Origin: Bifidobacterium lemurum
GTDB lineage: Bacteria > Actinomycetota > Actinomycetes > Actinomycetales > Bifidobacteriaceae
Reading direction: 5' to 3'
Assembly: GCF_014898175.1 (NCBI RefSeq)
Contig: NZ_CP062948.1
Span: 1 to 64,000, forward strand
DNA length: 64,000 nucleotides
Shown: piece after piece, positions 6,896-53,315 of the stretch
Layout: each line of letters begins with the position of its first letter
Numbering within the stretch: position 1 is the stretch's first letter
Notes under the pieces: generated by a model
Database searches by the model: none
Seen by the model: the letters and a program-made list of their open reading frames with translations, nothing else
Told to the model about the DNA's origin: nothing
Program-made: the position numbers and the translations under genes

Positions 6896-7945
6896 TCACC
6901 GCGTCGTCATGGTCGAATCCTTCGGGCAGACGCGCGTCGTCGAGATGCACGCCGCTTGGGGCAGCATCCAATCGTCGACCGGCGGGTTCGGCCGCTCCCG
7001 GCGCGGATACACGGCGAGGGTTTTCACCCAGTCGCCATGCTCGGCCACTTCGGTGAGCACGCTCTGGAAACGCTGCTGCCATGGCGCGGCGTCGATGGTG
7101 ACGATGAAGCTGTAGGTGCCGTCATGGCCTTTGATCGGGCGGGAGATGAAGCTGGTCATGTTCAGGCCGGCGTCGCGCAGCACGTCGAGCAGGTCGGCCA
7201 GCACGCCGGGTCCGGTGCTTAGGGGAATGAAGGTGATGATGGTCTCATATTCGGCCACCTCGTCCTCGCGCGCGTGGGCGAGCAGCTCCATCACCGTCAC
7301 GCGGGGGGCGAGCACCAGGAACTCGGTGTGGGCGCCCTGGTAGTCCTGCACGCCCTTGGCGACGGTGCGCAGACCGTACAGCGGGCCGCAGATGCTTGGG
7401 CCGAACGCCATCTGTCCGGGTTCGAGGTCGCGGCAGGCGGCGGCGTTGGAGCTGGCCGGCTCGGGGACCAGACCGTATTCGGCGATGAAGCGCTTGCATT
7501 GGGCGAGGCCGTGCGAGTGCGCGCTGACGGTGGCGCCGCGCAGGGCGCGGAGAGCGGCGGCGTCGAGTGGTTCGGAGGGTGGGATTCCTCGACTGCGCTC
7601 GGAATGACGGGAGGGGGACTCGTCGGAGGGACGGTCGGAACGGTCACGCACGAAGGCGTCGAAAGTGATGTCGACGCCGACGCGGGCGAAGCCGGCGATG
7701 TCGCGCGAGTCGATCAGAGCGTCGAGATTCGGCACCACATAGCCTTCGACGTTGTTCTCCCACGCGATCACACCCCAGGACTCCCCCGATTCCACGGCCC
7801 GCATAATCGACGGCACATCGGGCGCGGCAATCAGTTCGGGGCGCGTTCCCTCACAGAGCGGCGCGAGCATGTCGGCCGCCGTCATGGCGGCCTGATGCGT
7901 GAAGGTGCCTTCCGGACCCAAATAGGTCAGCGTTATTCCAGTCAT
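6896..7945 (-). CDS. pheA: Prephenate dehydratase, with an in-frame palindromic-element insertion
   Basis: Converts prephenate to phenylpyruvate in phenylalanine synthesis. The start at 7945 (MTGITLTYLGPEGTFTHQA) has the family's N-terminal motif. GVIAWENNVEGYV is the active-site region, VSAHSHGLAQC the second domain, and ISRPIKGHDGTYSFIVTID the C-terminal ACT domain that binds phenylalanine. An upstream ATG (7954) is less likely because it lies outside the conserved start. Length is 349 aa. Residues about 108-125 (ESPSRHSERSRGIPPSEP) are not part of the family. They are translated from a copy of the palindromic repeat seen in intergenic regions of this window (7581-7608), lying in a linker before the second substrate-binding lobe. 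It is the first gene of a pheA-tyrA operon. Confidence 0.92.
   Translation of the reverse strand: MTGITLTYLGPEGTFTHQAAMTAADMLAPLCEGTRPELIAAPDVPSIMRAVESGESWGVIAWENNVEGYVVPNLDALIDSRDIAGFARVGVDITFDAFVRDRSDRPSDESPSRHSERSRGIPPSEPLDAAALRALRGATVSAHSHGLAQCKRFIAEYGLVPEPASSNAAACRDLEPGQMAFGPSICGPLYGLRTVAKGVQDYQGAHTEFLVLAPRVTVMELLAHAREDEVAEYETIITFIPLSTGPGVLADLLDVLRDAGLNMTSFISRPIKGHDGTYSFIVTIDAAPWQQRFQSVLTEVAEHGDWVKTLAVYPRRERPNPPVDDWMLPQAACISTTRVCPKDSTMTTR
7581..7608 (-). repeat. Palindromic-element copy inside pheA
   Basis: One arm of the dispersed element is read on the minus strand as GTCATTCCGAGCG, then CAGTCGAGGAATCCC. It is in frame and translated as RHSERSRGIP. The same core occurs in intergenic positions 8657-8737 and 36364-36455 and in smc. 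Confidence 0.8.
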
Positions 7946-8030
7946 AGGCCTCACTGTACCCGTTCACGTCCGCGCCCCGCATCCGGACACCCGCATCCGC
8001 GGACATCACCGTCGAGACGTGCGGGCCGGG

Positions 8031-8531
8031 CTATTGATCGTCGTTGGCCGGCTGAGCATCGTCACGGTGTTCCGCGTCCCGGTCGATGACGGTTCTGGGA
8101 GGGACCACGAACCACCGGTCGGGCATCAGCGCCATCGCCACCTGAATCGCGATCAGACCGTACAGCCAGATGTTTCCCGCGTGTTCGCTGAAGAACGGCA
8201 GTTCGGCACTGAATCTGATCACGATCAGCGCGTTGGAGCTGGTGGTGCTCAGCGCCACACCCCACGCGGTGGCCGACGAGGCAATCAGATGCAGCGCCAG
8301 CCCGCTGACGTCGAGCCGGGCCCGCGCGCACCATGCCGACAGTCCCATGACCGCGAACGCCAGCGCAAGACCGTAGGGAATATTGGACGACGCGCCCATG
8401 CGGTGGGCCAAGGTGCCGATCAGAGCCGAACCCGCGCCCGCAAGCAGGGTGACGGCGATGCGCACCGCGGCGTTCTGGCGGTGGCTCCATGGCAGCAGGG
8501 CGTTCTCGGAGGCGATGTCGGATTGAGTCAT
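8031..8531 (-). CDS. Small integral membrane protein, unknown function
   Basis: 166 aa with four likely membrane segments: IAVTLLAGAGSALIGTLAH, YGLALAFAVMGLSAWCA, GLALHLIASSATAWGVAL and IWLYGLIAIQVAMALM. A polar, acidic C-terminal tail (DRDAEHRDDAQPANDDQ) follows. The start at 8531 (MTQSDIASEN) is preferred over a GTG-type start further out. The topology resembles conserved actinobacterial small membrane proteins located near translation genes, but I do not recognise the family with certainty and no catalytic motif is visible. It lies between pheA and typA, all on the minus strand, about 200 bases downstream of typA with a terminator between, so it is likely transcribed on its own. Confidence 0.7.
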   Translation of the reverse strand: MTQSDIASENALLPWSHRQNAAVRIAVTLLAGAGSALIGTLAHRMGASSNIPYGLALAFAVMGLSAWCARARLDVSGLALHLIASSATAWGVALSTTSSNALIVIRFSAELPFFSEHAGNIWLYGLIAIQVAMALMPDRWFVVPPRTVIDRDAEHRDDAQPANDDQ

Positions 8532-8554
8532 ACCCGTCAGTGTAGCGCCCCATA

Positions 8555-8590
8555 ACAAAACATCCTCTCTTTTCCAAGAGAGGATGCTGG
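8555..8590 (-). terminator. Rho-independent terminator (typA direction)
   Basis: CATCCTCTCTT (8561-8571) pairs with AAGAGAGGATG (8576-8586). On the minus strand the stem is followed by TTTTGTTATGG. It ends typA transcription before the membrane-protein gene. Confidence 0.8.
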
Positions 8591-8621
8591 AAACCTATTC
8601 ACGTCATTCCGGATCACAGAC

Positions 8622-8737
8622 CCGTCATTCTGAGCGGAGCAGCCGTGCCAACCCGCGTCATCCCGAGCGAAGTCGAGGGATCTCATACTGATATCCGAAG
8701 AGATTCCTCGACTCCGCTGCGCTCCGCTCGGAATGAC
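8622..8737. repeat. Cluster of dispersed palindromic elements, one inverted pair plus a fragment
   Basis: A fragment GTCATTCTGAGCGGAGC (8624-8640) is followed by a left arm 8657-8684 (GTCATCCCGAGCG...GTCGAGGGATCTC). A facing right arm follows at 8700-8737 (GAGATTCCTCGACTCCG...CTCGGAATGAC). The two arms pair to form a long stem. Lies between the typA terminator and the typA stop codon's flank. Confidence 0.8.
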
Positions 8738-8764
8738 GAAGAAGAACGACGGTCGTCAGAATGC

Positions 8765-10690
8765 TCAGCCCTGCTGAGCGTTCTGCCTGCGCTGCTTGGC
8801 GCGCCACTTGTACCAGTCCTCGCGGTTGAGGATGATCTTACGCACGCGGATCGCCTCGGGGGTCACCTCAACGCATTCGTCCTCGTTGGCGAAGTCCAAC
8901 GACTCCTCGAGGCTCATGCGGATCGGCGGGGTGAGGGTTTCGAGCACGTCGGCGGTGGAGGAGCGCATGTTGGTCATATGCTTGGCCAGCGTGATGTTCA
9001 CGTCGAGCTCGTCGGGCTTGTTGTTCACGCCCACGACCTGGCCTTCGTAGACCGGGGACTGCGGGTCGACGAAGAAGTTGCCTCGCGCCTGCAGACGCTG
9101 CATGGCGTACGGGGTGGCGATGCCCTTGCGGTCGCACACCATGGAGCCGTTCTGGCGGATGGTGATCTTGCCGGCCCACGGCGCGTATCCGGCGGAGATC
9201 GACGAGGCGATGCCGGTGCCGCGCGTGGATGAGAGCAGGGCGGTGCGGAAGCCGATCAGACCGCGGCTCGGCACGGTGAACTGCAGACGCACCCAGCCGG
9301 AGCCGTGGTTGGTCATGGAGTCCATGCGGCCCTTGCGGTCGGCCATGAGCTGGGTGACGGTGCCCATGTACTCCTCGGGCACGTCGATGGTGGTGTTCTC
9401 CATCGGCTCGTTGATCACGCCGTCGATGGTTTTAGTGACCACCTGCGGACGGCCGACGGTGAGCTCGTAGCCTTCGCGGCGCATCTGCTCGGCGAGCACG
9501 GCCAGGGCGAGTTCGCCGCGGCCCTGCACCTCCCAGGCGTCGGGACGGTCGGTGGGCAGCACCTTGATGGACACGTTGCCGATGAGCTCGCGGTCGAGGC
9601 GGTCCTTGATCATGCGGGCGGTGAGCTTGTGGTCCTTGCCTTCGGTGCCGGCCAGCGGGGAGTCGTTGATGCCGAAGGTCATGGAGATGGCCGGATCGTC
9701 CACATGGATGAGCGGCAGGGGCTTCGGATCGGACGGATCGACGATGGTCTCGCCGATCATGATGTCGTTCACGCCGGCGACGGCGACGATGTCGCCGGGG
9801 CCCGCGGAGGTGACGGGGATGCGCTCCAGGCCCTGCGTGCGCAGCAGCTCGGAGACGCGGAAGTTCGCGACGGATCCGTCCACACGGCTCAGACCGTAGG
9901 TTTTGCCCTTCTCCAGCGTGCCGTTGTAGATGCGCACGAGGCCGAGTCGTCCGAGGAAGTCGGAAGAGTCGATGTTGGCGACATGGGCCTGCAGCGGCTC
10001 GCCCTCCTCGTATTCGGGGGCGGGAATGTTGGAGATGATCGCCTCGAACAGCGGCTCGAGGTCCTCGTTGTCGGGCAGTCCGCCGTCGGCGGGCTGGTTC
10101 ACGGAGGCGTAGCCGGCCTTGGCGGCGCAGTAGATCACCGGCAGTTCGAGCAGCGCGTCGAGGTCGAGGTCGACGCCTTCGTGCTGCACGTCGTCGGCCA
10201 GGCCGAGCAGCAGGTCGGAGGCCTCGCCCACGACCTCTTCGATGCGCGCGTCGGGACGGTCCACCTTGTTGACGCACAGAATCACCGGCAGCTTGGCCTC
10301 GAGGGCCTTGCGCAGCACGAAGCGGGTCTGCGGCAGCGGGCCTTCGGAAGCGTCGACGAGCAGCACCACGCCGTCGACCATGGAGATGCCGCGTTCCACC
10401 TCGCCGCCGAAGTCGGCGTGGCCGGGGGTGTCGATGATGTTGAGGGTGATGCCCTCGGGGTGGCCGTACTTCTCGGCCAGCGGGCCGGTGTACTGCACGG
10501 CCGTGTTCTTGGCGAGGATGGTGATGCCCTTCTCGCGTTCCAGATCGTTGGAGTCCATCACGCGGTCGGGGACCTCCTCACGCTCGGAGAAGACGTGGGA
10601 CTGCTGGAGCATGGCATTGACCAGCGTGGTCTTGCCGTGGTCGACGTGAGCCACGATCGCCACATTACGGATATCACCGCGAACCGCCAT
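8765..10690 (-). CDS. typA: Ribosome-associated GTPase TypA/BipA
   Basis: 641 aa translational GTPase of the EF-G/LepA class, acting on 50S assembly and stress adaptation. G1 is [18 protein letters not shown]2 includes [13 protein letters not shown]3 [12 protein letters not shown], and G4 [13 protein letters not shown]. The BipA-specific C-terminal domain follows, with [49 protein letters not shown] and [11 protein letters not shown]. The C-terminus [18 protein letters not shown] leads to the basic tail [16 protein letters not shown]. The start at 10690 ([13 protein letters not shown]) has AGAGAGG upstream. Length and domain order are complete. It is monocistronic, with a terminator downstream and the MFS gene's terminator upstream. 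Confidence 0.97.
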
Positions 10691-10810
10691 GAAATACCTC
10701 TCTTAATTCCTGTTGATTCCTGGGTTCCAGATTGCGCCGGCGAATCGCCGGCCCCTTACACACAAACCGACACAATGCTACGCGCATTGCGCGACAGCCC
10801 TCGAAAACGA

Positions 10811-10870
10811 AAAAAACCGCGCACGCCGCGAGGGGCGGCCATCGAACGGCGGACCCCACGGCGTGCGCGG
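10811..10870 (-). terminator. Strong terminator downstream of the MFS transporter gene
   Basis: CCGCGCACGCCG (10817-10828) pairs with CGGCGTGCGCGG (10859-10870). On the minus strand the stem is followed by a run of T (complement of 10811-10816). Confidence 0.8.
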
Positions 10871-10889
10871 GAGACGACAGGAGAACGGG

Positions 10890-12269
10890 CTAATCCTCCA
10901 GATCGAGGCCCTTGCGTTCGGGCAGGCACAGGGCCGCGACGCAGGCCAACACGAACGCGGCGGCGAAGATGACGAAGGCGACCGTCTTGTCGCCGCCCGA
11001 CATGGTCAGGAACCACGGCACCAGCAGCGGCGCGATGATGGCGGCCACACGGCCGCAGGCGGCGGCCGCTCCGGCTGCGGCGCCGCGCAGACGGGTCGGG
11101 TAGATCTCCGGCGTCACGGCGTAGAGCACGCCCCACGCGCCGAGGTTCGAGGCGGACAGCAGCATGCCGAACACCAGCACCAGAGCCACGGAACCGGCCT
11201 GCGAGAACAGGAAGGCTGCCACGGCGGAGACGGCGAGGAACACACTCAGGGTTTTGCGGCGGCCCCAGACCTCCACCAGCCACGCGGCGAGGAAATAGCC
11301 GGGAAGCTGGGCGATGGAGATCGCCAGGGTGTAGCCGAAGGATTTGGTCAGAGAACCGAACTGGTCGGCCAGCAGGCTCGGCATCCAGGTGAACGCGCCA
11401 TAGTAGGAGAAGTTCACGAAGAACCAGGTGGCCCAGATGGCCGCGGTGCGGGCGATGTACTTGGATCCGAAGAGCTCGCGCGTCCTGATCTTCGGCAGCG
11501 GATGCCCCTTGGGGGAATCGACCGGAGCGACGCCCGAGGCCGCTTCGAAATACCGCACGGCCTTCTCGGCCTCGTCCTCGCGGCCCTGCGCCTCGAGGAA
11601 TCGCACGGATTCGGGGATGTGCGCGCGGGTGACGATGGCGTACAGCAACGGCAGCGCGCCGATGAGCAGCGCCCAGCGCCAACCCCAGTCGCCGGTGTTC
11701 GGAATCACGAAGTAGCCGATCATCGCCGCGATGATCCAGCCGACGGCCCAGAAGGACTCCAACAGCACGGTCATGCGCCCGCGCTGCGCGGTCGGCGAGA
11801 ACTCGGACACCAAGGTGGAGGCCACCGGCAGTTCCGCGCCCAATCCCAAGCCGATGACGAAGCGGGCGATGAGCAGCGCGGCCAGGGTCCAGCTGAAGGC
11901 CATGCCGGCGTTGGCCAGGCCGAAGATCACCAGCGTGGCGGCGAACACGGTTTTGCGGCCCACCCGGTCGGCCACGAAACCGCCCAGGGCGGCGCCGATG
12001 GCCATGCCGACGAATCCGATGGAGAGCACCCACGATTTCTCCGTGGCGCTGAGGTTGAAATGCGGGTCGGCGGCGATGGCGGCGACGACGAACGACACCA
12101 GGCCGACGTCCATGGCGTCGAACGCCCAGCCGATGCCGGAGGCGACCAGAAGTTTGCGATGCGCTTTGTTGAACGGCAGCCGGTCGAGACGCTCGTTGCG
12201 GGTGAGCATACCGTCCGCGCGCGCCGCCGCGGGCCGCGCCGATGGCGATGTCTGTGCTGTGGTCATCAT
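10890..12269 (-). CDS. niaP: MFS transporter, probably niacin uptake (NiaP-like)
   Basis: 459 aa with twelve predicted membrane segments and the MFS signature GGFVADRVGRKTVFAATLVIFG after TM2. The opening motif NERLDRLPFNKAHRKLL, then ASGIGWAFDAMDVGLVSF, is typical of the sugar-porter/NiaP/aromatic-acid subgroup. A mid-loop holds PESVRFLEAQGREDEAEKAV and the second half has WLVEVWGRRKTLSVF. The start at 12269 (ATGATGACC after GAGAAGGA) is favoured over distal starts. The gene follows the NrtR-like regulator by 67 bases on the same strand and probably shares its promoter and operator. NrtR repressors elsewhere control NAD-precursor genes, and bifidobacteria generally depend on niacin uptake, so niacin or a related carboxylate is the likely substrate. 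The substrate call is by context, not by a diagnostic residue. Confidence 0.65.
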   Translation of the reverse strand: MMTTAQTSPSARPAAARADGMLTRNERLDRLPFNKAHRKLLVASGIGWAFDAMDVGLVSFVVAAIAADPHFNLSATEKSWVLSIGFVGMAIGAALGGFVADRVGRKTVFAATLVIFGLANAGMAFSWTLAALLIARFVIGLGLGAELPVASTLVSEFSPTAQRGRMTVLLESFWAVGWIIAAMIGYFVIPNTGDWGWRWALLIGALPLLYAIVTRAHIPESVRFLEAQGREDEAEKAVRYFEAASGVAPVDSPKGHPLPKIRTRELFGSKYIARTAAIWATWFFVNFSYYGAFTWMPSLLADQFGSLTKSFGYTLAISIAQLPGYFLAAWLVEVWGRRKTLSVFLAVSAVAAFLFSQAGSVALVLVFGMLLSASNLGAWGVLYAVTPEIYPTRLRGAAAGAAAACGRVAAIIAPLLVPWFLTMSGGDKTVAFVIFAAAFVLACVAALCLPERKGLDLED

Positions 12270-39539: not shown

Positions 39540-40667
39540 TCACAGAATGCGCAGCTGGTCGCGCATCACGAAGGCGACCGCCCCGAGTGCGGCGGCGTCG
39601 GCGCCGAGTTGGGACCGGCGCACGTTCACCGCGCCGATGAACCGGGAGCGGACCATATCGTTGATGGTGTCCCGGACCACGCGGGCCATTCCGTCGTCCA
39701 CCACATCCTCGGGACCGGCCACGATCACCTCGCTGATATTGGACATCGCCACGGGCATCGCCAACGCGCGCCCCAGAATGGCGCCGGCATCGGCCACGAC
39801 ATCGTCGCGATGGCCGGGTTCCTGGGCTATGCGGCGTTCCAGCACCGGCGTGGAGACCAGGGTCTCCAGACATCCTCGTTTGCCGCAGACGCATTGCGGT
39901 CCGTCGTCGTCCACGACGACATGGCCGATCTCGCCCGCGGCGTGGTCGGCGCCCTGCACCACGTTGCCGCCGATCAGCATGGCGGCGCCGAGGCCTTTGG
40001 CCACCTGCACGAGCATCATGTTCTCCGAGCCTTGGGCGAAGCAGCGCTCCGCGAACAGCGCGCAATCGGCGTCGTTCGCCACCGTGGCCTCCAGGCCGAG
40101 CCTGTCGCGCAGAAGCGCCGCCAGCTCCACGTCGGTCCATCCGAGGTTGGGCGCGGCCAGCACGACGCCTTCCCGCTCGTCCACGGTACCCGGCGTGGCG
40201 ACCGCGACTCCGAGCACCGGAGCGTGGGCGCGCGCGACCAGACGTTCGCAGAATTCCACCACCTGCGTGGTGCGCAGCGGCATATGCTCGACGATGGGCT
40301 CCTGGTCCCGTTCGAGCACGTCGCCCGCCAGATCCGTGACGATGCCCCGCATGCCGTCGGCCTCCGAGATGTCGACCGACGCCACGTTCATGGACCGGGC
40401 GTTGAATCCGACCAGCAGCGCGGGTTTGCCCGGCTTCGGGGAGTTCTGGTATCCGCCTTCGGTGACGAGGCCGTCCTGAATCAGTTCGGCCACCACGTCG
40501 GATGTGGAGACCTTGGACATGCCGGTGATTCGGGAGAGTTCGGCCCGTGAGCACCATACGTTCGGGTAGATGGCGCGCAGCACCGCGGTGCGGTTGCGCT
40601 GCCTGATGTCCGACGGCGCGGCGGCGGAGTAGTCGTCACGCGTATGGGACGTGCGGGTGAGGGCCAT
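39540..40667 (-). CDS. ROK-family transcriptional repressor (NagC-like)
   Basis: 375 aa. The N-terminal winged helix has DIRQRNRTAVLRAIYPNVWC and SRAELSRITGMSKVSTSDVV. The ROK sugar-binding domain has GVAVATPGTVDEREGVVLA, the ROK Zn site CVCGKRGCLE and ENMMLVQVAKGLGAAMLIGG. A strong ribosome-binding site AAGGAGGTTGGCGTA precedes ATG 40667. It lies between the permease and GH20 genes, so it is the likely GlcNAc/GlcNAc-6-P-responsive regulator of the locus. It is one of three ROK regulators in 12 kb. Confidence 0.88.
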   Translation of the reverse strand: MALTRTSHTRDDYSAAAPSDIRQRNRTAVLRAIYPNVWCSRAELSRITGMSKVSTSDVVAELIQDGLVTEGGYQNSPKPGKPALLVGFNARSMNVASVDISEADGMRGIVTDLAGDVLERDQEPIVEHMPLRTTQVVEFCERLVARAHAPVLGVAVATPGTVDEREGVVLAAPNLGWTDVELAALLRDRLGLEATVANDADCALFAERCFAQGSENMMLVQVAKGLGAAMLIGGNVVQGADHAAGEIGHVVVDDDGPQCVCGKRGCLETLVSTPVLERRIAQEPGHRDDVVADAGAILGRALAMPVAMSNISEVIVAGPEDVVDDGMARVVRDTINDMVRSRFIGAVNVRRSQLGADAAALGAVAFVMRDQLRIL

Positions 40668-40746: not shown

Positions 40747-41622
40747 CTATTTCACCGCGCCGGTGGTGATTCCCTTGGCGATGTTGCGCTGCACGATCAT
40801 GAAGAACACCACGACCGGCAGGGAGAACAGCACGGATGCGGCCATCTGTCCGCCGAAATCGGTTCCGGCGGGGGTGGAGAAGCTGGACAGCCACACGGGC
40901 AGCGTGTACTTGGTCTGGTCCTTCATGAAGGTGTAGGCCATCAGGTAGTCGTTCCACGCGGTGATGAAGGCGAACACCGAAGTCGAGACCACGCCGGGCG
41001 CCACCAGCGGGAAGGTGATGCGGCGCAGGATCTGCCATTCGCTGGCGCCCTCCACGCGGGCCGATTCGAAGATGTCCTTCGGGATCGACAGGAAGAAGCC
41101 GCGCATGTTCCAGATCGAGAACGGCAGCACGGTGGCGATGTACGCCAGGATCAGGCCGATGTACTTGTTGAGCAGTCCGAACTGGTTGAACACGATGAAC
41201 TGCGGGATCAGCATGGCCGTGCCGGGGATCATCTGCATGGCCAGGATCATGACCATGATCGTGCGGCGTCCGCGGAAGCGGTACAGGGTCAGCGAGGCGC
41301 AGGCGAGGAAGGCGAAGAACACCGAGACGATGATGGCCACGAAGGTGACGATGACCGAGTTCTTCAGATTGACGAAGAAGTTGGTCTCGAACATCGCGGT
41401 CCGGAAGTTCTCCAGCGACCAGTGGGTGGGGATGAACACCGGCTGGGTGGTCATCACCTCGCTGCGCGGCTTGAACGCGGTGATGGTCATCCAGTAGACC
41501 GGGAACAGCCACACGACGCTGAACAGGATCGCCAGCACGTTGGTGCCGATTCTGCGCCAATTGAGCCTGCGGTTGGTTTTCACTCCGGCGCGGGCGCCGG
41601 CTTGCTTGGTCGCGGTCGTCAT
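40747..41622 (-). CDS. Carbohydrate ABC transporter permease (MalG/MsmG type)
   Basis: 291 aa, six membrane segments: VLAILFSVVWLFPVYWMTIT, SVIVTFVAIIVSVFFAFLAC, IMVMILAMQMIPGTAMLIPQ and others. The EAA loop reads ARVEGASEWQILRRITFPLV. TFMKDQTKYTLPVWL is typical of the CUT1 family. ATG 41622 overlaps the stop of the partner permease (TGATG). It forms the heterodimeric channel with the next gene and the lipoprotein receptor. No ATPase gene is in the locus, so a shared MsmK-like ATPase elsewhere probably powers it. Confidence 0.92.
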   Translation of the reverse strand: MTTATKQAGARAGVKTNRRLNWRRIGTNVLAILFSVVWLFPVYWMTITAFKPRSEVMTTQPVFIPTHWSLENFRTAMFETNFFVNLKNSVIVTFVAIIVSVFFAFLACASLTLYRFRGRRTIMVMILAMQMIPGTAMLIPQFIVFNQFGLLNKYIGLILAYIATVLPFSIWNMRGFFLSIPKDIFESARVEGASEWQILRRITFPLVAPGVVSTSVFAFITAWNDYLMAYTFMKDQTKYTLPVWLSSFSTPAGTDFGGQMAASVLFSLPVVVFFMIVQRNIAKGITTGAVK

Positions 41623-42602
41623 CACAGGTCCTCCCCCGTCTTGAGCAGATTGCGCACGTACACGCCGGTGAGCGCGAGCAGGATGATCACGGTGATCACC
41701 GAGATGGCGGCGCCCTGCGCGATGTCGAAGTTGACGAACGCCTGCTTGTAGGTGAACACGCCGATGGTGGAGGTGGATCCGGAGGGACCGCCCTGGGAGA
41801 CCAGCCAGATCTGGTTGAACACGTTGAAGTCCCAGATCACCGACAGCATGGCGATCACCATGATGCTGGGCTTGATCAGCGGCACGACGACCTGCCAGTA
41901 GGTGCGGATCGGGCCGGCGCCGTCGAGCTGCGCCGCCTCGATGCAGGAGTGGTCGATCTGCGTGGTCGCCGCGTACAGGGTGATGGCGATGTACGGCACG
42001 GCCTGCCAGACCACCAGCAGCCAGATGCACACGAACGCCAGCGTGGTGTCGTTCGACCAGGCGAGGTTGCTCACGTCGCCGAAGATGCGCAGTTTGGTGA
42101 GCAGATAGTTGATCACGCCATATCCGGGTTGGAACAGCCACTTCCACACCACGGAGGAGGCGACGTTCGGCATGGCCCATGCGAAGATCAGCGCGAAGGT
42201 GACGACGTAGCGCATCACCGTGCCGAGTTTGGTCATCATCTGCGCGACGGCCATGCCGATGAGCATGCTGCCGACCACCAGCGCGGCGGTGAACAGGAAG
42301 GTGCGCAACAGGGACTGCCAGAAGGCGGCGTCGGACAGCGCGGCGGCGTACTGCGCCAGGCCGACGAATTCGAATTCGCCGGTGAACAGCGAACGTTGGT
42401 TGAAGTCGGTGAATGAGGTGAACACCAGGAAGATGATCGGAACGATGACCAGCGCGGCGAGGATGATTCCGGTGGGAGTCAGCAGCAGCGCGGTGAATCC
42501 GGTCGTCGATTTCATCGTCTTGCGGGTGCGGGGGGTGGTGTGCGCTGACCGTGGAGTCTTGCCGTTGCGCCGCGCGGTCGGTGTCAGAGTTGAGGTTGTC
42601 AT
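41622..42602 (-). CDS. Carbohydrate ABC transporter permease (MalF/MsmF type)
   Basis: 326 aa with six core membrane segments. TALLLTPTGIILAALVIVPI is followed by FTSFTDFNQRSLFTGEF, VGLAQYAAALSDAAFWQSLL, the EAA loop EAAQLDGAGPIRTYWQVVVP and LIKPSIMVIAMLSVIWDFNV. It has a long basic cytoplasmic N-terminus (RRNGKTPRSAHTTPRTRK). It follows the binding-protein gene with a hairpin between, and its stop overlaps the partner's start, so the two permeases are made in equal amounts. Confidence 0.92.
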   Translation of the reverse strand: MTTSTLTPTARRNGKTPRSAHTTPRTRKTMKSTTGFTALLLTPTGIILAALVIVPIIFLVFTSFTDFNQRSLFTGEFEFVGLAQYAAALSDAAFWQSLLRTFLFTAALVVGSMLIGMAVAQMMTKLGTVMRYVVTFALIFAWAMPNVASSVVWKWLFQPGYGVINYLLTKLRIFGDVSNLAWSNDTTLAFVCIWLLVVWQAVPYIAITLYAATTQIDHSCIEAAQLDGAGPIRTYWQVVVPLIKPSIMVIAMLSVIWDFNVFNQIWLVSQGGPSGSTSTIGVFTYKQAFVNFDIAQGAAISVITVIILLALTGVYVRNLLKTGEDL

Positions 42603-42690: not shown

Positions 42691-44004
42691 CTACTCGCCG
42701 AGCACTTCGTTCAGATGATCGTCGAAGGTCTTCGCGGCCTCCTCGACGGAGGTGCCGGTGGCGACGGACTGGGTGAACTCGTTGATGGACTTGTCGCCTT
42801 CGATGGTGGCCCAGTTCGGGGAGGCCGGGGTGGCCTTCGAATTCTTGGCCGCCTCGAAGAAGCCGCGCTGCACTTCGGGGAAGTCGCTGGAGTTCATGGC
42901 CTCCTCCAGGCCCTCCACGGAGTTCGGCATCCATCCGTCATGGGCGAAGATCCACTCCTGCTGGATTTCGGCGCTGGCGGCGATCTTGACCCATTCGATG
43001 GCCAGTTCCTGGTTCTGGCTCTTCGCGGCGATGGCCCAGTCGGAGCCGGCGACCATGGACGGCTGGTTCTCGCCGCTCTGGCCCGGCATCGCGAAGGTGC
43101 CCAGATCGTCGTCGGTCATGTCGGCGTTGAGCTCCTTGATGCCGGAGATCGCGTTGCTGTTGCCCAGGATGGCGGCGGTGTTGCCGTCGGCGAGGAACTG
43201 GTTCTGGTTCGGGTTCGCCGTGTCGACGGTGCGGGAGGCCTCGCTGGAGTACTTGTTCTGGAAGTCCTTCCAGTTGTTCATGCCTTCGATGGCTTCGGCG
43301 CTGGAGGCGGTGCCCTTCCAGGTGCCGTCCTCGTCGGAGGCCACGTCGCCGCCGGCGTCCCAGATGAACTGCAGGGCGGAGTACCAGTTCTGGCCGGGCA
43401 GGTAGAACGGGATGAAGTCGGGGTTGTCGGCGTTGGCGGCGGCGACCGTGTCCAGGTCGGCGATGAACTCGTCCCAGGTGGTCGGCGCTTCGGTGATGCC
43501 GGCCTCGGCCCACATCGTCTTGTTGTAGACGACGGCGCGGGCGGCGGCGAACGCCGGCACGGCGTACAGCTTGCCGTCGATGGTGGCGGGCTCCTCGAGG
43601 CCGCCGACCCATTCGTTGCCTTCGCTCAGCTCGTCCTTGTAGTCGGTCAGGTCCATCAGGGCGCCGCTGTCGGCGAAGCCCGACACCTGCGTGTTGTCCA
43701 GATCGACGATGTCGGGCGGAGTGGAGGTGGACAGCGCGGTGGTGAGCTTGGTGGTGATGCCGTCCCATTCCTGGATCTCGACGTTGGCCGTGGCGCCGGT
43801 CTTCTCCTCGAACGCCTTGTTGATGGCGTCGAGGGTCTCGTCGGTGAAGTCGTCCTTCATGGCCCAGACGGTGATCGTCTTGCCGGACGCGTCGTCGGAC
43901 GACGAGTCCCCACCGGACGAGGGGCTGCCCATCGAGCAGCCGCTCAGGGCCATCGCGGCTACCAACGCCATCGCCGTGGAGGCGACAATACGCTTCTTTT
44001 GCAT
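42691..44004 (-). CDS. Sugar-binding lipoprotein of the ABC importer (CUT1 SBP)
   Basis: 437 aa. Lipoprotein signal MQKKRIVASTAMALVAAMAL ends in the lipobox LSGCS, followed by a Ser/Asp-rich linker. The SBP_bac_1 core reads TITVWAMKDDFTDETLDAIN, DGITTKLTTALSTSTPPDIV and YAVPAFAAARAVVYNKTMWA, then NAISGIKELN and NQELAIEWVKIAASAE. ATG 44004 is chosen because AAGGAG lies eight bases upstream; ATG 44010 is only two bases from it. It binds an oligosaccharide outside the cell and delivers it to the two permeases downstream. Given nagA/nagB and GH20, an N-acetylhexosamine-containing glycan is likely. Confidence 0.9.
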   Translation of the reverse strand: MQKKRIVASTAMALVAAMALSGCSMGSPSSGGDSSSDDASGKTITVWAMKDDFTDETLDAINKAFEEKTGATANVEIQEWDGITTKLTTALSTSTPPDIVDLDNTQVSGFADSGALMDLTDYKDELSEGNEWVGGLEEPATIDGKLYAVPAFAAARAVVYNKTMWAEAGITEAPTTWDEFIADLDTVAAANADNPDFIPFYLPGQNWYSALQFIWDAGGDVASDEDGTWKGTASSAEAIEGMNNWKDFQNKYSSEASRTVDTANPNQNQFLADGNTAAILGNSNAISGIKELNADMTDDDLGTFAMPGQSGENQPSMVAGSDWAIAAKSQNQELAIEWVKIAASAEIQQEWIFAHDGWMPNSVEGLEEAMNSSDFPEVQRGFFEAAKNSKATPASPNWATIEGDKSINEFTQSVATGTSVEEAAKTFDDHLNEVLGE

Positions 44005-44297
44005 GTCCATTTCTCCTTGTGACCGTTTCTTGATCGGCGGCGTCTTCCCGCCTTGCAGTGAGGGTTGGTGTCGGTGTCGCGTCACTGCAACCACGCCGAC
44101 GTGTCAGGTGTCTGCGACGTTCGCAGGCACCATATGCGTGAGGCCTCAAGCAAGTTCGTATTCTTTTGGAGTGGTTATTCCTTTGATGTGAAATTCCCCA
44201 TCCCAATATTTTAGTTTAGTTTCCTTACTTACTTAGAGCATCAAAACATCTTTGTCGAAGTCAACAATAACCCCTCCTCAACGATGGCGCAAATCGC
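44005..44297 (-). promoter_or_regulatory. A+T-rich promoter/operator region of the ABC importer genes
   Basis: The about 290 bases upstream of the binding-protein gene become A+T-rich at 44160-44270. On the minus strand TTGTTGACTTCGACAAAG lies at the far end, then the short direct repeats AAGTAAGTAAGG and AAACTAAACTAAAATATT (about 44238-44207). These look like regulator half-sites or an extended promoter. No gene was found in it. Confidence 0.5.
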
Positions 44298-44360: not shown

Positions 44361-45620
44361 CTACTTCAGCCGACGTCCGGCGCACCAGACCTGTTCGACC
44401 GTCCAGGTGTCCGGATCGGTCAACAGCAGGTCGGCGGCGAATCCGGGCGCGACAAGGCCCAGCGGAGCTCCGGTGACCGGATTCGGCTTGTCGTAGCCGA
44501 AGGCCTTGGCGCCGGTGAGCGTCGCCGCCTCGACGGCCTCGACCGGCGAGATGCCCAGCTCGTTCACCGCACGCCGCACCGCCACCTCGAGCAGCAGCGT
44601 GGAGCCGGCGATCGCGCCGTTGGACACCAGACGCGCGTGGCCGTCGACCACGTTCACATCCAAGGCGCCGAGTTTGTACGGCCCGTCGGGGCAGTCGGTG
44701 GCGGCCATCGCGTCGGTGACGAACGCGGTGCGGTGGGGCGCGAACCTGAAGCTCAGCGACACCATCGGATCGTCCACATGGAATCCGTCGTTGATGAGCT
44801 CCACGGTGACGCGCGGATCCTCCACGGCGGCAGGAATCGGACCGGGTTCGCGGTGGTGCAGGCCGTTCATCGCGTTGAACATATGGGTCATGATGCCGGC
44901 ACCGGCGTCGAAGCCGCGTCGGGCCATCTCATAGTCGGCGTCGCAATGGCCCACCGCGGGCACGGTGCCGGCCGCGGCGAACTGGCGGATCGCCGAGATG
45001 CCATGCGGCAGTTCGGGCGCGATGGTGATCTGGCGGATGCAGCCATCGGCTGCCTCAAGCATCGTGTCGACGACCTGGGGCACCGGATCGATCAGACATT
45101 GCGGGTCATGCGCGCCCTTGCGGGCCATCGCCAGGAACGGGCCTTCGAGATGGCAGCCCAGGATATCGGGGCGTTCGTCCATTTTGGCGCGCACGTTGCG
45201 GATGTTCTCGCAGATCACCTCCACCGGGTTGGTGATCAGCGACAGCACCTGGCGGGTGGTGCCGTGCACGGCGTGCCCGGCGCGGGCGATGTCGATTCCT
45301 TCGGGGCCGTCGTCGAAGCTGTGCTCCCACGAGCCGTGGGCGTGGATGTCCACATAGCCCGGGGTGAGCACTCGTCCGGCCGCGTCGATGACGGCGTTCC
45401 CGTCGTCGGGATCGATGCCGACGAACCGGCACGCCGACTCGAACTCCCCGTCATCGGTGCCGACCGCCTCGATGACGCCGGAGGCGTCCGAAACGACCCA
45501 GAAATGAGACCGTTCGCCGCGCGCGTCCACCTTGCGCGCGCCGCGGACGGCGACCGGCGACGGATCGCCGGTGAGCGCGTCGGTGACGCGGGCGACGATC
45601 TGTTCGCGTGATTGAGCCAT
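44361..45620 (-). CDS. nagA: N-acetylglucosamine-6-phosphate deacetylase
   Basis: 419 aa amidohydrolase that removes acetate from GlcNAc-6-P. The metal and active-site motifs are VLTPGYVDIHAHGSWEHSFD, ILGCHLEGPFLAMARKGAHD, VPAVGHCDADYEMARRGFDA and MTHMFNAMNGLHHREPG. The catalytic Asp lies in FVTDAMAATDCPDG, and the end is PGFAADLLLTDPDTW. It is 31 bases downstream of nagB and feeds it in reverse order of the pathway. Complete length. Confidence 0.95.
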   Translation of the reverse strand: MAQSREQIVARVTDALTGDPSPVAVRGARKVDARGERSHFWVVSDASGVIEAVGTDDGEFESACRFVGIDPDDGNAVIDAAGRVLTPGYVDIHAHGSWEHSFDDGPEGIDIARAGHAVHGTTRQVLSLITNPVEVICENIRNVRAKMDERPDILGCHLEGPFLAMARKGAHDPQCLIDPVPQVVDTMLEAADGCIRQITIAPELPHGISAIRQFAAAGTVPAVGHCDADYEMARRGFDAGAGIMTHMFNAMNGLHHREPGPIPAAVEDPRVTVELINDGFHVDDPMVSLSFRFAPHRTAFVTDAMAATDCPDGPYKLGALDVNVVDGHARLVSNGAIAGSTLLLEVAVRRAVNELGISPVEAVEAATLTGAKAFGYDKPNPVTGAPLGLVAPGFAADLLLTDPDTWTVEQVWCAGRRLK

Positions 45621-45651: not shown

Positions 45652-46464
45652 TCAGATGCCCTGCCAGGCGGGCTTGTGCGTGTAGGCGTACTGGTAGTAC
45701 TCCTTGTGGCGCAGGCTCGAGGCGGCGGCCTCGTCCACGATGATCGTCGCGTGCGGATGCATCTGCAGGGCGGAGGCCGGGCAGAAGGCGCTCACGCCGC
45801 CCTCGCAGGTCTGCGCGACGGCCTCGGCCTTGCCCGCGCCGAAGGCGAGCAGCACCAGATGGCGGGCGCGCATGATCGTGCCGATGCCTTGGGTGATGCA
45901 GTGCGTGGGCACTTGGTCGATATCGTCGTCGAAGAAGCGGGCGTTGTCGACGCGGGTCTGCTCGACCAACGTCTTGATGCGCGTGCCGGAGGCCAGCGAC
46001 GAGCCGGGTTCGTTGAATCCCACATGGCCGTCGGTGCCGATGCCCAGGATCTGCACGTCGATGCCGCCGGCGGCTTCGATCGCCGCGTCGTAGTCGGCGC
46101 CGGCGTGGGCGAGCTTGTCGCCGTCCTCAAGCGGCGCGCCGTCCAGCACGTCGCCCGGCACATGCACCAGATCGGGGTTCATTCCCAACGGTTCGACCAC
46201 CGTGCGGTGGATGGTGCTGTGGTAGGACTCCGGGTGGCTCAGCGGCAGACCGATATACTCGTCGAGCGCGAAACCGCGCACGCGGCTCATATCGATGTCC
46301 TCGTCCTTCACCGTCTTGGCCAGCGCCTGATAGGCGGCCAGGGGGCTCGATCCGGTGGCCAGGCCCAGCACGGCGTCCGGCTTGGATTTGATGAGGTCGG
46401 CCACGGCCCGGGCGTAGATCTCGCCGGCTTCGGCCTCGTTCTTGACAATGATGACTTCTGGCAT
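45652..46464 (-). CDS. nagB: Glucosamine-6-phosphate deaminase
   Basis: 270 aa; converts GlcN-6-P to fructose-6-P and ammonia, feeding the bifid shunt. VLGLATGSSPLAAYQAL is the phosphate-binding loop. FALDEYIGLPLSHPESYHST and VQILGIGTDGHVGFNEPGSS carry the catalytic Asp and His residues, and LASGTRIKTLVEQTR and ARHLVLLAFGAGKAEAV follow. AAAGGGTAGAAC precedes ATG 46464. An about 128-base gap upstream contains GTTAAC (46508-46513) and a TATACT box, so it may have its own promoter. Confidence 0.96.
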   Translation of the reverse strand: MPEVIIVKNEAEAGEIYARAVADLIKSKPDAVLGLATGSSPLAAYQALAKTVKDEDIDMSRVRGFALDEYIGLPLSHPESYHSTIHRTVVEPLGMNPDLVHVPGDVLDGAPLEDGDKLAHAGADYDAAIEAAGGIDVQILGIGTDGHVGFNEPGSSLASGTRIKTLVEQTRVDNARFFDDDIDQVPTHCITQGIGTIMRARHLVLLAFGAGKAEAVAQTCEGGVSAFCPASALQMHPHATIIVDEAAASSLRHKEYYQYAYTHKPAWQGI

Positions 46465-46592: not shown

Positions 46593-48263
46593 CTACGGCA
46601 CGACGACGGCGCCGACGGCGTCGCCCCCGGCCGCCTCGTTGCCGAGGAAATCCTTGTCCGACGCGAAACCGTTGCGGTCGACGACCCGCTTCGCCACGCC
46701 CATGGCGGGCCCTTGCGCGACCGGTCGGTAGCCCTCGAACACGGTGGGGGCCTCGGAATCGTCGTGCGGGCGGACCAAGCCGCTCGGATCGGGGGACGTC
46801 GGCGCGCTGCCCGGGTCGCGCAGCACCGCCACGCCCTGCGGCACGGCGATGCCGTCCGGATCGTCCGGCATGTCGGCGAAATGGTAGTAGAGGTTGTTGG
46901 AATAGGTCACCAGCGAACCGCCCTGCGTCCAATTGCCCTCGACGGCATGGTCCTGCGCGTTGTAGAAGATGTTGTTCTCCACGACGGCGTGCCCGCCGAC
47001 GTGGTTGTCGCGGATGACCGTGCCGCCTTCGGGGATGACGAAGGTGTTCTGGTACACATGCGCGTCGGGGTTGCCCGGTATGTCGATGGCGCCTTTGAGG
47101 TCGCCCTGCGCGATGTTGTACCGGAAGGTGTTGTTCACGGATTTGCCCAGGCAGAACATCACCGTGCCGCCGGTGTTGCCGTGCGAATAGTTGTACTGGT
47201 ACAGCGTGCCGTCGCCGTAGTCGGCGTCCCACGCCTGGCCGTCGTCATTGCCGTGCGCGCCGTTGCGCATGCGGAACACCTCGTTGTATTGGAACAGGGC
47301 GTTCTTGCAGCGCCACGGCCAGATGCCGGCGGCCACCTTGCCGAAGTCGGTGGCGGCGTAGTCGACGTCGTTCACCTGCCTCGCCGCCCCTTGGGCCACG
47401 TTGCGCTGCACCAGCGGACGGTCGCAGTACATCACGGTGATGGCGTCGCCGCCGGCGTCCTTGACGTAGTTGTTCTCGACGAGCACGTTGGTATGGCCGT
47501 ACCGCGCGATCGCCGCGTCGTCGATGGTGCCGTCGCCGTAGTCGCCGGCGTCCAGCTCGTTGAGGTAGGCGGTGTATCCCACGGCGATGCCCCAGCGGCC
47601 CACGGTGTCCAGCCGGTTGCCGACGATGCGCACGTCGTCGAAGCGGGCGATGGACTCCTCCCTTCGCGAGGGATCCTTGGGATAGTGCGCGATGAAGTAC
47701 ACGCCGCCGTTGGCCAGGTGTTTGTCGTAGACGTTGCCGGTCACGTCGTGGATGTTCAGCCCGGTGAGCACGATATGCCGCGATGTTCCCGCGTTTTCGG
47801 CGATCACGGCCACGCCGGTGCGGTTCATGGCGTCGCGGTCGTTGTAGGCCAGACCGTCCGGATTGCCCAGCTCGCGGCTGTTGGTGATCTCCAGCCCCTC
47901 CACTTCGACGTATCGCACGTCTTTGAGCAGCAACGCCGTGGAGACGACGGCACGGTAGCGGTGTCCGCCGATTTCGGTGGTGTTGTAGTCCTCAAGCCAT
48001 TGCCCCTGCCCGTTGGCGTTGATGACGGGAGCCGCGCCCTCGCCGTAGGCGGCGATGCGGATCGGGGCGTCCTCGCTGCCCGAACTGCCCTCTTTGATGT
48101 GCAGCGCCTGGTCGTTGAATATCGATCCGCGTTTGAGCAACACCTGGTCTCCGGGACCGAGCTCGATGTCGCCGATGCGTTCGAGGCTGCCGAACGGGGC
48201 GTCTTCGCTCAGACCGTCGTTGGTCGTGTCGGGGGCGACATCGGACGAGACGTAATACAACAT
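46593..48263 (-). CDS. Right-handed parallel beta-helix protein, GH136-like (candidate intracellular lacto-N-biosidase type)
   Basis: 556 aa. The start LYYVSSDVAPDTTNDGLSED is typical of secreted beta-helix enzymes, but no signal peptide precedes it. Repeated coil motifs occur throughout: RYVEVEGLEITNSRELGNPD, HTNVLVENNYVKDAGGDAIT, CKNALFQYNEVFRMRNGAHG, YQYNYSHGNTGGTVMFCLGK and AVVENNIFYNAQDHAVEG. Between coils the run GNDDGQAWDADYGDG has Asp residues seven apart (DDGQAWDAD). That is the spacing of the two catalytic Asp of the GH136 lacto-N-biosidase LnbX. The ATG at 48263 (AGGAGAG upstream) follows the helical partner gene by eight bases, matching the chaperone-hydrolase order in two-domain GH136 enzymes. 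Alternative: another beta-helix glycosidase or lyase. The GH136 link rests on pattern memory, not a search. Confidence 0.55.
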   Translation of the reverse strand: MLYYVSSDVAPDTTNDGLSEDAPFGSLERIGDIELGPGDQVLLKRGSIFNDQALHIKEGSSGSEDAPIRIAAYGEGAAPVINANGQGQWLEDYNTTEIGGHRYRAVVSTALLLKDVRYVEVEGLEITNSRELGNPDGLAYNDRDAMNRTGVAVIAENAGTSRHIVLTGLNIHDVTGNVYDKHLANGGVYFIAHYPKDPSRREESIARFDDVRIVGNRLDTVGRWGIAVGYTAYLNELDAGDYGDGTIDDAAIARYGHTNVLVENNYVKDAGGDAITVMYCDRPLVQRNVAQGAARQVNDVDYAATDFGKVAAGIWPWRCKNALFQYNEVFRMRNGAHGNDDGQAWDADYGDGTLYQYNYSHGNTGGTVMFCLGKSVNNTFRYNIAQGDLKGAIDIPGNPDAHVYQNTFVIPEGGTVIRDNHVGGHAVVENNIFYNAQDHAVEGNWTQGGSLVTYSNNLYYHFADMPDDPDGIAVPQGVAVLRDPGSAPTSPDPSGLVRPHDDSEAPTVFEGYRPVAQGPAMGVAKRVVDRNGFASDKDFLGNEAAGGDAVGAVVVP

Positions 48264-48271
48264 GTGCTCTC

Positions 48272-49045
48272 CTACTTGGCTGGTTGGGATCGGCCTCCCC
48301 TCGCGGAGGCCATGGCGGTCTGTTCGACGAGCGCTCGCAGCGCGCGCCACGGGACGCCTTCGACGACGATGGCGTCCGCATAATTGTTAACTATATTCAC
48401 AAATTTATGTTTTCTCAATTCCGCCATGACATGCGCGCGCACTTCGACGAATTCCGCCCCACGCCCGTCGACCGTCCACGAGCCGCTCCGGAAGAAGCGC
48501 TCGGCCTCGTCATCGCCGACCGCCATGCCCGGCAGCGAAGGGTCGGAGCAATAGCGCTCCTCAAGAGCCGCCATCTCATGCATCAGGTATGTGCCGAAAT
48601 CATATCGGGACAATCCGTACACCGGCTCCCCCTCCCGCACCGCGCGTTCCAGCCGCGCGTTGCACTCCCTCCAGCGCCGCTCGACGGATTCGAAATCGGC
48701 CCCGTCCACCAAACCCGAGCCGGCGGCCACCTCATAGAACGCGTGCAGACGGCGCAAACGGTCCACGGCGCGACGGGCCGCATGCAGCGCGACCGACTCC
48801 CCGCCGAAGGACGCCCGCCAGAACCCATATCCCAGATCGGCGTCATACCGACGCCGGAAATACGCCTGCGTCGCATGCCGCTCGAGATCCACCGCGAAAA
48901 GGAACTCCCTCTCCCCCACCAGGCCCGCCCCCAAAGCGAACAGCGCCGCACGGCCGTCGCACGAACCCGGCCACCCGGCCGATTCGGCCATCGCATCCTC
49001 ATCAGCCACCGCATCCTCATCAGCCACCGCATCCTCCTTGACCAT
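48272..49045 (-). CDS. Alpha-helical protein paired with the beta-helix enzyme (candidate GH136 chaperone subunit, LnbY-like)
   Basis: 257 aa with no recognised domain. The body is mostly helical and charged: VDLERHATQAYFRRRYDADL, AARRAVDRLRRLHAFYEVAA, ESVERRWRECNARLERAVRE, GTYLMHEMAALEERYC and EVRAHVMAELRKHKFVNIVN. No signal peptide or membrane segment is seen. The first residues come from tandem 18-base units (VADEDA twice), and GTG 49027, preceded by AAGGAGG, may be the true start. The stop lies eight bases before the beta-helix gene, so the two are translationally linked. GH136 enzymes need a helical partner domain or protein to fold, encoded just before the beta-helix, and this gene fits that place. 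Its codons at 48378-48420 are unusually A+T-rich. Confidence 0.5.
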   Translation of the reverse strand: MVKEDAVADEDAVADEDAMAESAGWPGSCDGRAALFALGAGLVGEREFLFAVDLERHATQAYFRRRYDADLGYGFWRASFGGESVALHAARRAVDRLRRLHAFYEVAAGSGLVDGADFESVERRWRECNARLERAVREGEPVYGLSRYDFGTYLMHEMAALEERYCSDPSLPGMAVGDDEAERFFRSGSWTVDGRGAEFVEVRAHVMAELRKHKFVNIVNNYADAIVVEGVPWRALRALVEQTAMASARGGRSQPAK

Positions 49046-49221: not shown

Positions 49222-50355
49222 ATGCAGCGACCGACCACGGAGGCCAGCGGCTACGCTTTCGGCAAGCCGTCCAAAGCCGGACCCGCCGACGCGCGGCGCA
49301 ACAACCGCACGCTGATCTTCTCCCTGCTCTTCCCGAACAACAGGCTCTCCCGCGCCGAGCTCGGACGACGCACCGGGCTGAGCCGCGTGGCCGTTTCCGA
49401 CGTGGTCAGCGAGATGCTCGACGAAGGACTGATTCGCGAGAGCGGCCAGGCACCGAGCCGCTCCAAAGGCAAACGCGGCACGCTGCTCAGCATCGACGCC
49501 GACCGGCTGCGCGCGATCAGCGTCGACCTCTCCCAGGCGCATCTCATCCGCGCCGCCGTCACCGATCTGCTGGGCCGGCCATTGACCCACGCGGAGGCCG
49601 CCGTGCTGGACGGACAGCAGATCACCGTCGACACCATCTGCGGAGTCATCGAGGCGTTGCCGAAGCCCGACGGACGCATCATCGGCATCGGCATCGCGAC
49701 CCCGGGCATCGTGGACGACGACGGCGTGGTGCGCGCCTCGACCAATCTCGGATGGCGCGACCTCGACCTGAAAACCCCGATAGAACGTCGTTTCGACCTG
49801 CCGGTGACGGTCGACAACGACGCCATCGCCGCCATGATGGCGGAGCGGTTCTTCGGCCAGGGCGGCCCCAACCTTCTGTTCGTGCGCGTGCGCAGGGGCA
49901 TCGGATCCGCCATCCTGGTCGACGACACCGTCGTGATCGGCGAGAACCACGCGGCCGGCGAGATCGCCCACATCTCGCTCGAACCGCAGGGACCGCCCTG
50001 CCCATGCGGCAAACGAGGCTGTCTGGAACGGCTCACCTCGGCGCCGGTCATCTACTCGCAGCTGCACGACAGCGCGCCGGACGAGCACGCCGACATCCTG
50101 ACGGGGGCGGCGCGCCGGCTGGGGCAGGCGCTGGCGATGCCGATCGGCATGTTCGATCTGGGCGACGTATGCGTGTACGGCCCCGCCGACATCATCAACG
50201 ATGAATTCATCGACGCGCTCCAAAGCCACCTCGACCAAACCACCGATTCGGCATGGCGGGAGCGAACCCTGGTGCGGCGCGGACAATGCGGCGACGACAT
50301 CACCATACAAGGCGAGGCGGTCGCCGTGATCTACCGGCATATCAAACGCCTGTGA
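49222..50355 (+). CDS. ROK-family transcriptional regulator
   Basis: 377 aa. The winged helix has DARRNNRTLIFSLLFPNNRL and SRAELGRRTGLSRVAVSDVV. The ROK domain has IIGIGIATPGIVDDDGVVRA, NLLFVRVRRGIGSAILVDD, ENHAAGEIAHISLEPQGPPC and PCGKRGCLERL. ATG 49222 follows GGAGGGAGCGACGATTCC. It is divergent from the helical/beta-helix pair, sharing an about 180-base intergenic region, so it is the natural regulator of that pair. Strong similarity in layout to the ROK at 39540 suggests a duplicated family of glycan-responsive repressors. Confidence 0.88.
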   Translation: MQRPTTEASGYAFGKPSKAGPADARRNNRTLIFSLLFPNNRLSRAELGRRTGLSRVAVSDVVSEMLDEGLIRESGQAPSRSKGKRGTLLSIDADRLRAISVDLSQAHLIRAAVTDLLGRPLTHAEAAVLDGQQITVDTICGVIEALPKPDGRIIGIGIATPGIVDDDGVVRASTNLGWRDLDLKTPIERRFDLPVTVDNDAIAAMMAERFFGQGGPNLLFVRVRRGIGSAILVDDTVVIGENHAAGEIAHISLEPQGPPCPCGKRGCLERLTSAPVIYSQLHDSAPDEHADILTGAARRLGQALAMPIGMFDLGDVCVYGPADIINDEFIDALQSHLDQTTDSAWRERTLVRRGQCGDDITIQGEAVAVIYRHIKRL

Positions 50356-52918: not shown

Positions 52919-53315
52919 GGGGCTGATCGGTTTCGACGGTGACCTGTTCGTCGCAGGGAAGCGTGCCGAGAACGCAGGGTCCGCTCGTGGATGTCCCCTG
53001 CAAAAGAATAAGTGCTAAATCTAACCGCACTGAGTTCGCTCTCGCTGCCTGAGCTTCGCGCCAGGACTAACCAGTGAGCAGCCGCTCCGTTCACTCTCCT
53101 TCGTCTTCGGGGAGAAGCTGAGCGTCGTTAAGAAGACTTGCTTTGATGGCTGAGCTTCAGGGCCATCAAGGGACTTTCACTGCAGATATGCCCGCCGTCC
53201 GTCGTCTGCGACATAGACGGGGGCAGAAAAACCGCCGCACGGCCAGCAGACTACGCACGTAGAAGACTGAGGGTACGGTCATCGGACCGGGGTTCAATTC
53301 CCCGCAGCTCCACCA
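52919..53315 (+). ncRNA. ssrA: tmRNA
   Basis: The 5' end GGGGCTGATCGGTTTCGACG and 3' end GGTTCAATTCCCCGCAGCTC followed by CACCA form the tRNA-like domain, with an encoded CCA. The tag reading frame at 53014-53052 is GCT AAA TCT AAC CGC ACT GAG TTC GCT CTC GCT GCC TGA. It encodes AKSNRTEFALAA, ending in the ALAA degradation signal. With SmpB it rescues stalled ribosomes and marks the product for proteolysis. Length 397 nt is normal. A perfect terminator follows six bases after. Confidence 0.97.

Follow-up and report, generated by a model that had tools for sequence, protein, structure and literature searches.

A probably cytosolic GH136-type enzyme with an LnbY-like partner in Bifidobacterium lemurum, and related enzymes without a recognisable partner

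Introduction

The closest described systems to the gene pair reported here are enzymes of glycoside hydrolase family 136 (GH136) in which a beta-helix catalytic domain, GH136_II, goes together with a helical GH136_I subunit or domain. In Bifidobacterium longum, LnbX is an exported enzyme and LnbY a membrane-anchored partner encoded by the adjoining gene, and in Eubacterium ramulus both parts are fused in one polypeptide, ErLnb136. The sections of PMC7335108 that deal with Roseburia hominis (Pichler et al. 2020) describe RhLnb136I and RhLnb136II as separate proteins which have no predicted signal peptide or transmembrane domain and are active only when co-expressed, and place RhLnb136 with an ATP-binding cassette (ABC) transporter and a GH112 gene in a human milk oligosaccharide locus serving an intracellular route. 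A cytosolic branch of GH136 is therefore already in print there, and the premise of a first-pass annotation of the present DNA, that the known GH136 enzymes are exclusively extracellular, does not agree with this account. We analysed the first 64,000 nucleotides of Bifidobacterium lemurum contig NZ_CP062948.1 (the window), where a GH136-like enzyme gene lies next to a gene for a helical partner. In the reading we favor, at a probability of roughly 0.68, the pair would be comparable to RhLnb136: a GH136 lacto-N-biosidase working in the cytosol together with a separate partner of GH136_I type.

A GH136_II enzyme and a GH136_I-like partner

The enzyme, whose beta-helix begins at the very start of the protein behind an AGGAG ribosome site, matched the NCBIfam LnbX model (NF047897) with 573.9 bits (E 8.9e-172) and PDB entry 5gqc at E 3.5e-155. 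Its beta-helix was 50% identical to B. longum LnbX over 541 residues, with the same catalytic residues, and 48% identical to the corresponding domain of ErLnb136, with a root-mean-square deviation (rmsd) of 1.4 over 418 residues; structures of the two window proteins were predicted singly. Residues 340-348 read DDGQAWDAD, and an Asp pair seven apart, D341 and D348, aligned with D568 and D575 of ErLnb136 (chain numbers in the alignment are the published numbers plus two). Besides, W317 aligned, by sequence alignment only and with the two-residue shift allowed for, with the galactose-stacking W548 of ErLnb136. All three positions were invariant in the 20 rows of alignment A4. By homology, D341 would be the acid/base and D348 the nucleophile of a GH136_II catalytic domain.

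The partner matched the NCBIfam LnbY model (NF047894) with 158.6 bits (E 2.5e-46). Since neither this match nor that of the enzyme reached its equivalog cut-off (400 and 2500 bits, respectively), the window proteins are not counted among the LnbX and LnbY equivalogs themselves. The predicted partner structure matched residues 7-179 of ErLnb136, in its helical domain, with residues 31-95 of the partner left unaligned. This match was by fold only, as the partner profile found no PDB chain by sequence at E 10, and Tyr145 of ErLnb136 had no confident placement on the partner. A single-sequence search for homologs returned only four proteins, the window's own included, so a profile was used instead; it found 18 proteins, not all of them complete or in frame throughout. 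The alignment used for folding omits P0133, P0134 and P0141, which are fragment or out-of-frame rows, and P0129, a partial B. longum LnbY. An alternative partner start, GTG at 49027, lies six codons past the ATG and would give 251 residues; it is the likelier start, being closely preceded by AAGGAGG and corresponding to the GTG start of the gene in the matching locus of another genome (G031).

Thus, several proposals of the first-pass annotation were substantiated: the two frames are present, on the minus strand with 8 bases between them, the Asp spacing is that of ErLnb136, the LnbX profile places the enzyme in GH136 far beyond chance, and both the enzyme beta-helix and the partner helical fold match ErLnb136. 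The partner is helical as proposed, but the LnbY match takes it out of the "unknown family" in which it had been left.

Localisation of the pair

We scored export signals as the best 15-residue hydropathy within the first 70 residues. The enzyme scored 0.26 and the partner 1.26, neither having a strongly hydrophobic start, compared with 2.37-3.27 in seven bifidobacterial LnbY proteins and 1.69-2.79 in nine exported-type GH136 proteins used as positive controls. By this measure neither protein carries a signal peptide or a transmembrane segment, and no anchor domain was found in either. The window pair resembles RhLnb136 in consisting of two separate proteins without export signal, and it differs from ErLnb136 in being split over two genes. 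It shares the adjoining partner gene with LnbX and LnbY, but neither the export features of the enzyme nor the membrane anchor of the partner: across the genus, full-length frames of LnbX type span 1,652-1,854 residues and LnbY carries a membrane helix at its N-terminus, whereas the window enzyme and partner are both short and unsignalled. As no export signal is seen on either protein, both are probably cytosolic. The first-pass annotation had likewise seen no signal or anchor and had proposed a cytosolic GH136 pair; this part of its reading is supported. LnbX itself acts outside the cell, and the pair might in principle reach the cell surface by a non-classical route and act there in the same way; the lack of strongly hydrophobic segments and anchor domains, together with the absence from the partner of the membrane helix found in its bifidobacterial relatives, makes this highly improbable.

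Conservation and distribution

The window form (P0001, P0003, P0004) was a separate clade with support 1.0, and relatives of the enzyme at 92% and 82% identity had nearly the same length and start. Comparison of the window with G031 gave the enzyme and the partner ratios of nonsynonymous to synonymous substitution rates (dN/dS) of 0.15 and 0.37, respectively, against 0.02-0.13 for nagB, nagA, the sugar-binding protein (SBP) of the neighbouring importer and the divergent ROK gene. Both proteins are under purifying selection, the partner being the fastest evolving among the six locus genes compared. These data bear on the possibility that an extracellular LnbX-LnbY system has lost its signals here and that the pair is what is left of it, decaying and no longer working. 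Such a remnant would account for the absence of signals and of the C-terminal LnbX domains and for the faster change of the partner, and it has a precedent in B. bifidum, whose LnbX/LnbY homologs are thought, in the part of PMC11206791 (2024) concerned, to be non-functional as their signals are missing. However, both frames are intact with the catalytic residues kept, dN/dS is well below 1 for both proteins, length and start are preserved in the relatives, and the window form is no degraded neighbour of full-length LnbX in the tree. We therefore regard decay as very unlikely.

Among 112 Bifidobacterium genomes, 27 had GH136-like matches at E 1e-20: two carried the window form, seven an intact full-length LnbX-type gene, 11 a short form described below, and seven distant matches only. 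LnbY was found in nine of the 112 genomes (six over the curated cut-off), and these are precisely the genomes of the first two groups. Of 396 genomes drawn from the order, four matched at E 1e-80, and these all belong to Bifidobacterium; this threshold misses split or weaker matches, such as that of G029. The window genome has only this one strong GH136 copy.

Several other relatives were observed. The window genome contains a distant LnbX-like beta-helix relative with 24-29% identity in two overlapping called frames (G000 1671-1676 kb; L066 about 7056-11992). The metagenomic GH136 proteins P0005, P0006 and P0009 (568-656 residues, no hydrophobic start) grouped weakly with the window form (support 0.59), P0006 representing 369 member sequences. 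One genome with the short form and no LnbY also has an LnbX-type gene of full length that is interrupted by a TAG (G053:C8:267638-269377). In G042, a distant LnbY-like protein, hydrophobic at its start (C34:68865-69197, locus L020; E 1.5e-5), lies beside a distant GH136-like beta-helix protein (C34:70010-71419; E 1.2e-26, 29% identity); these neighbours perhaps point to a wider family of partner-dependent beta-helix enzymes.

A short form without a recognisable partner

The short form was one clade with support 1.0 (20 of 63 tree rows) and was 44-58% identical to the window enzyme. Its database proteins, among them P0056 of B. oedipodis and P0109 of B. pseudolongum subsp. globosum, had 477-526 residues and were mostly 50-80 residues shorter at the C-terminus. 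IWPW and GQAWDAD were kept in the products of all 11 genes. Eight of nine database proteins started at the beta-helix with hydropathy 0.47-1.37 and no strongly hydrophobic start; the scan did not include P0044, whose called start is longer. Thus, the tested short-form proteins resemble the window form in being unsignalled with catalytic residues kept, and are probably cytosolic as well, judged from their sequences. In contrast to the window form, they have no detectable partner gene and stand beside gltA-lnpA. In all 11 loci (L052-L062, 20 kb each) the gene lies next to gltA and is divergent from it, and gltB, lnpA and nahK are also present; gltC was called in eight, and lnpA matched TIGR02336 in the four loci tested (1194-1277 bits).

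A search of the 11 short-form genomes with the LnbY profile at E up to 10 gave two matches only, at E 0.03 and 0.17. Four controls scored E 6e-94 or better, but they or their close relatives are in the profile, and short-form genomes may hold a GH136_I too divergent for these searches. At 14 positions at least 90% of 43 other rows, which are not sorted by partner presence, share one residue that is kept in at most 30% of short-form rows; for example, Q325 is replaced by E in 20 of 20 short-form rows and N430 is kept in none. These positions may mark a lost partner surface, a lead only, and one weakened by ErLnb136, which has its partner domain fused and also departs at positions 301, 325, 404 and 405.

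Across the 112 genomes, all 11 short-form genes lie beside a cluster for lacto-N-biose/galacto-N-biose import and phosphorolysis, and LnbY was detectable in 0 of 11 short-form genomes versus 9 of 9 with the window form or intact full-length gene. Both findings favor the view, tentative and at slightly less than even odds, that two separate cytosolic GH136 lineages evolved in Bifidobacterium and that the gltA-lnpA short form dispensed with the GH136_I partner required by the published GH136 enzymes considered here. Neither a cytosolic active GH136 in Bifidobacterium nor a partner-free GH136 appeared among the matches listed for the literature searched, with subscription papers mostly outside it; a table in PMC10629584 credits B. 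bifidum with one GH136.

The idea that the short form simply replaces a GH42 lacto-N-tetraose galactosidase was only partly borne out by the GH42 matches in the 11 genomes. Identity to the GH42 of the window genome was 69-79% in G053, G056 and G103, 63-64% in G018, G022 and G039, and 49-50% in G023 and G044; G027 had a weak match only (E 6e-111), and G029 and G061 had none at E 1e-100.

Locus, pathway and possible substrates

All the genes that the first-pass annotation had named around the pair (ABC importer, GH20, NagA and NagB) are present (Table 1). The minus-strand order is partner, GH136, nagB, nagA, SBP, two permeases, ROK and GH20. This setting differs from that of RhLnb136 in that the window pair belongs to an actinobacterium, stands beside nagB-nagA and has GH112 elsewhere in the genome.

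Table 1. Positions of the GH136 pair and other features within the window
Feature	Position	Strand	Basis or remark
GH136_I / LnbY-like partner, 257 aa from ATG	48272..49045	-	NCBIfam LnbY, fold match, hydropathy
GH136_II beta-helix enzyme, 556 aa	46593..48263	-	NCBIfam LnbX, PDB, residue alignment
nagB, glucosamine-6-phosphate deaminase	45652..46464	-	NCBIfam NF001684, 416.7 bits (cut-off 326)
nagA, N-acetylglucosamine-6-phosphate deacetylase	44361..45620	-	TIGR00221, E 6.2e-65, 219.6 bits (just under cut-off 225.65)
Perfect 17-bp inverted repeat, 7-base loop	44298..44338		just past nagA; no T run after
SBP of ABC importer	42691..44094	-	PF01547, E 1.6e-34; TIGR03850 as top NCBIfam model, 58.4 bits (under cut-off 299)
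ABC permease 1	41622..42602	-	PF00528
ABC permease 2	40747..41583	-	PF00528
ROK regulator	39540..40667	-	PF00480, E 1.5e-39
GH20 protein, 690 aa	37437..39509	-	PF00728, E 1.1e-11; PF02838, E 2e-12
Divergent ROK regulator, NagR-like	49222..50355	+	
tmRNA gene	52919-53315	+	Rfam RF00023, 154.8 bits

A nagB match was found in 82 of the 112 genomes, and GH136 adjoined nagB in two of 30 nagB loci listed, those of the window and G031. In 13 of the remaining 28, a ROK gene 54-61% identical to the divergent one of the window directly faces nagB, on which ground the latter is called NagR-like. Similarly, Table 1 of PMC9599254 gives nagK-nagR-nagB-nagA on consecutive locus tags in B. infantis. These gene orders are most simply read as an insertion of the pair between nagR and nagB. 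Because the inverted repeat lies just past nagA, partner-GH136-nagB-nagA may form a unit of its own, possibly ending at this repeat; a terminator scan did not score it, and promoter- and terminator-like sites were no more frequent than in shuffled sequence. No common motif was seen in a palindrome scan near the pair for a shared operator, so control of the pair by the NagR-like protein would be an inference.

The importer-GH20 module is an independent neighbour. SBP was found in 32 and GH20 in 54 of the 112 genomes (both E 1e-60), and 25 of 30 other SBP genomes have GH20 at most about 6 kb from SBP, none of the 25 with the window-form pair. The link of the pair to the locus that the first-pass annotation had drawn therefore stands for the nag genes and is weaker for the importer and GH20. 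The best solved relative of the GH20 protein was PDB 2epk (E 7.8e-12), none being close; the GH20 of the matching G031 locus (C1:2798266-2800332), 95% identical to that of the window, has one TGA within the matched stretch.

Elsewhere in the window genome (~1.743-1.753 Mb) is a gltABC-lnpA-nahK-galT-galE cluster (GH112 match E 1.4e-206, neighbours named by similarity) with no GH136 called beside it. With this cluster, the steps from lacto-N-biose to central metabolism appear to be encoded. In the pathway we envisage, a type-1 chain oligosaccharide, such as lacto-N-tetraose, would be imported by GltABC or by the ABC transporter beside the pair. The LnbY-like partner would be required for beta-helix activity. 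It would either stay beside the beta-helix as a lasting subunit that contributes to the active site, the arrangement in ErLnb136, or assist its folding, the role proposed for LnbY. Retaining cleavage by D341 and D348 would then release lacto-N-biose for phosphorolysis by the GH112 enzyme LnpA, whose gene is present, and amino sugar made en route may pass to NagA and NagB, encoded after the pair on the same strand.

The same cytosolic pair might instead act on another substrate, a glycan containing galacto-N-biose or GlcNAc that enters through the adjacent importer and is shared with the adjacent GH20, for example one derived from host O-glycans and not from milk. These genes lie in the same minus-strand run; GH136 specificity varies, RiLea/b136 releasing Lewis a/b sugars according to the relevant section of PMC7335108; and a separate GH42 of the window genome has its top PDB matches in the beta-galactosidase chains 8ibr, 8ibs and 8ibt (up to 1351.7 bits). 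However, the importer-GH20 module, widespread without the pair, serves a purpose of its own, and the active-site loops and sugar-stacking Trp resemble the lacto-N-tetraose type. We consider a different substrate unlikely, and prefer a lacto-N-biosidase.

Implications

An intracellular two-protein GH136 is already known; what appears to be new here is a pair of cytosolic type in bifidobacteria, which extends the intracellular GH136 strategy from Clostridiales to this group. If true, it would add a type-1 chain route in which import comes first and cytosolic release of lacto-N-biose second. Of greater weight than the window pair, and possibly surprising to specialists, are the relatives that have no recognisable partner: such a natural clade would make it testable, by domain swaps and at the 14 altered positions, why a glycosidase needs a dedicated helper.
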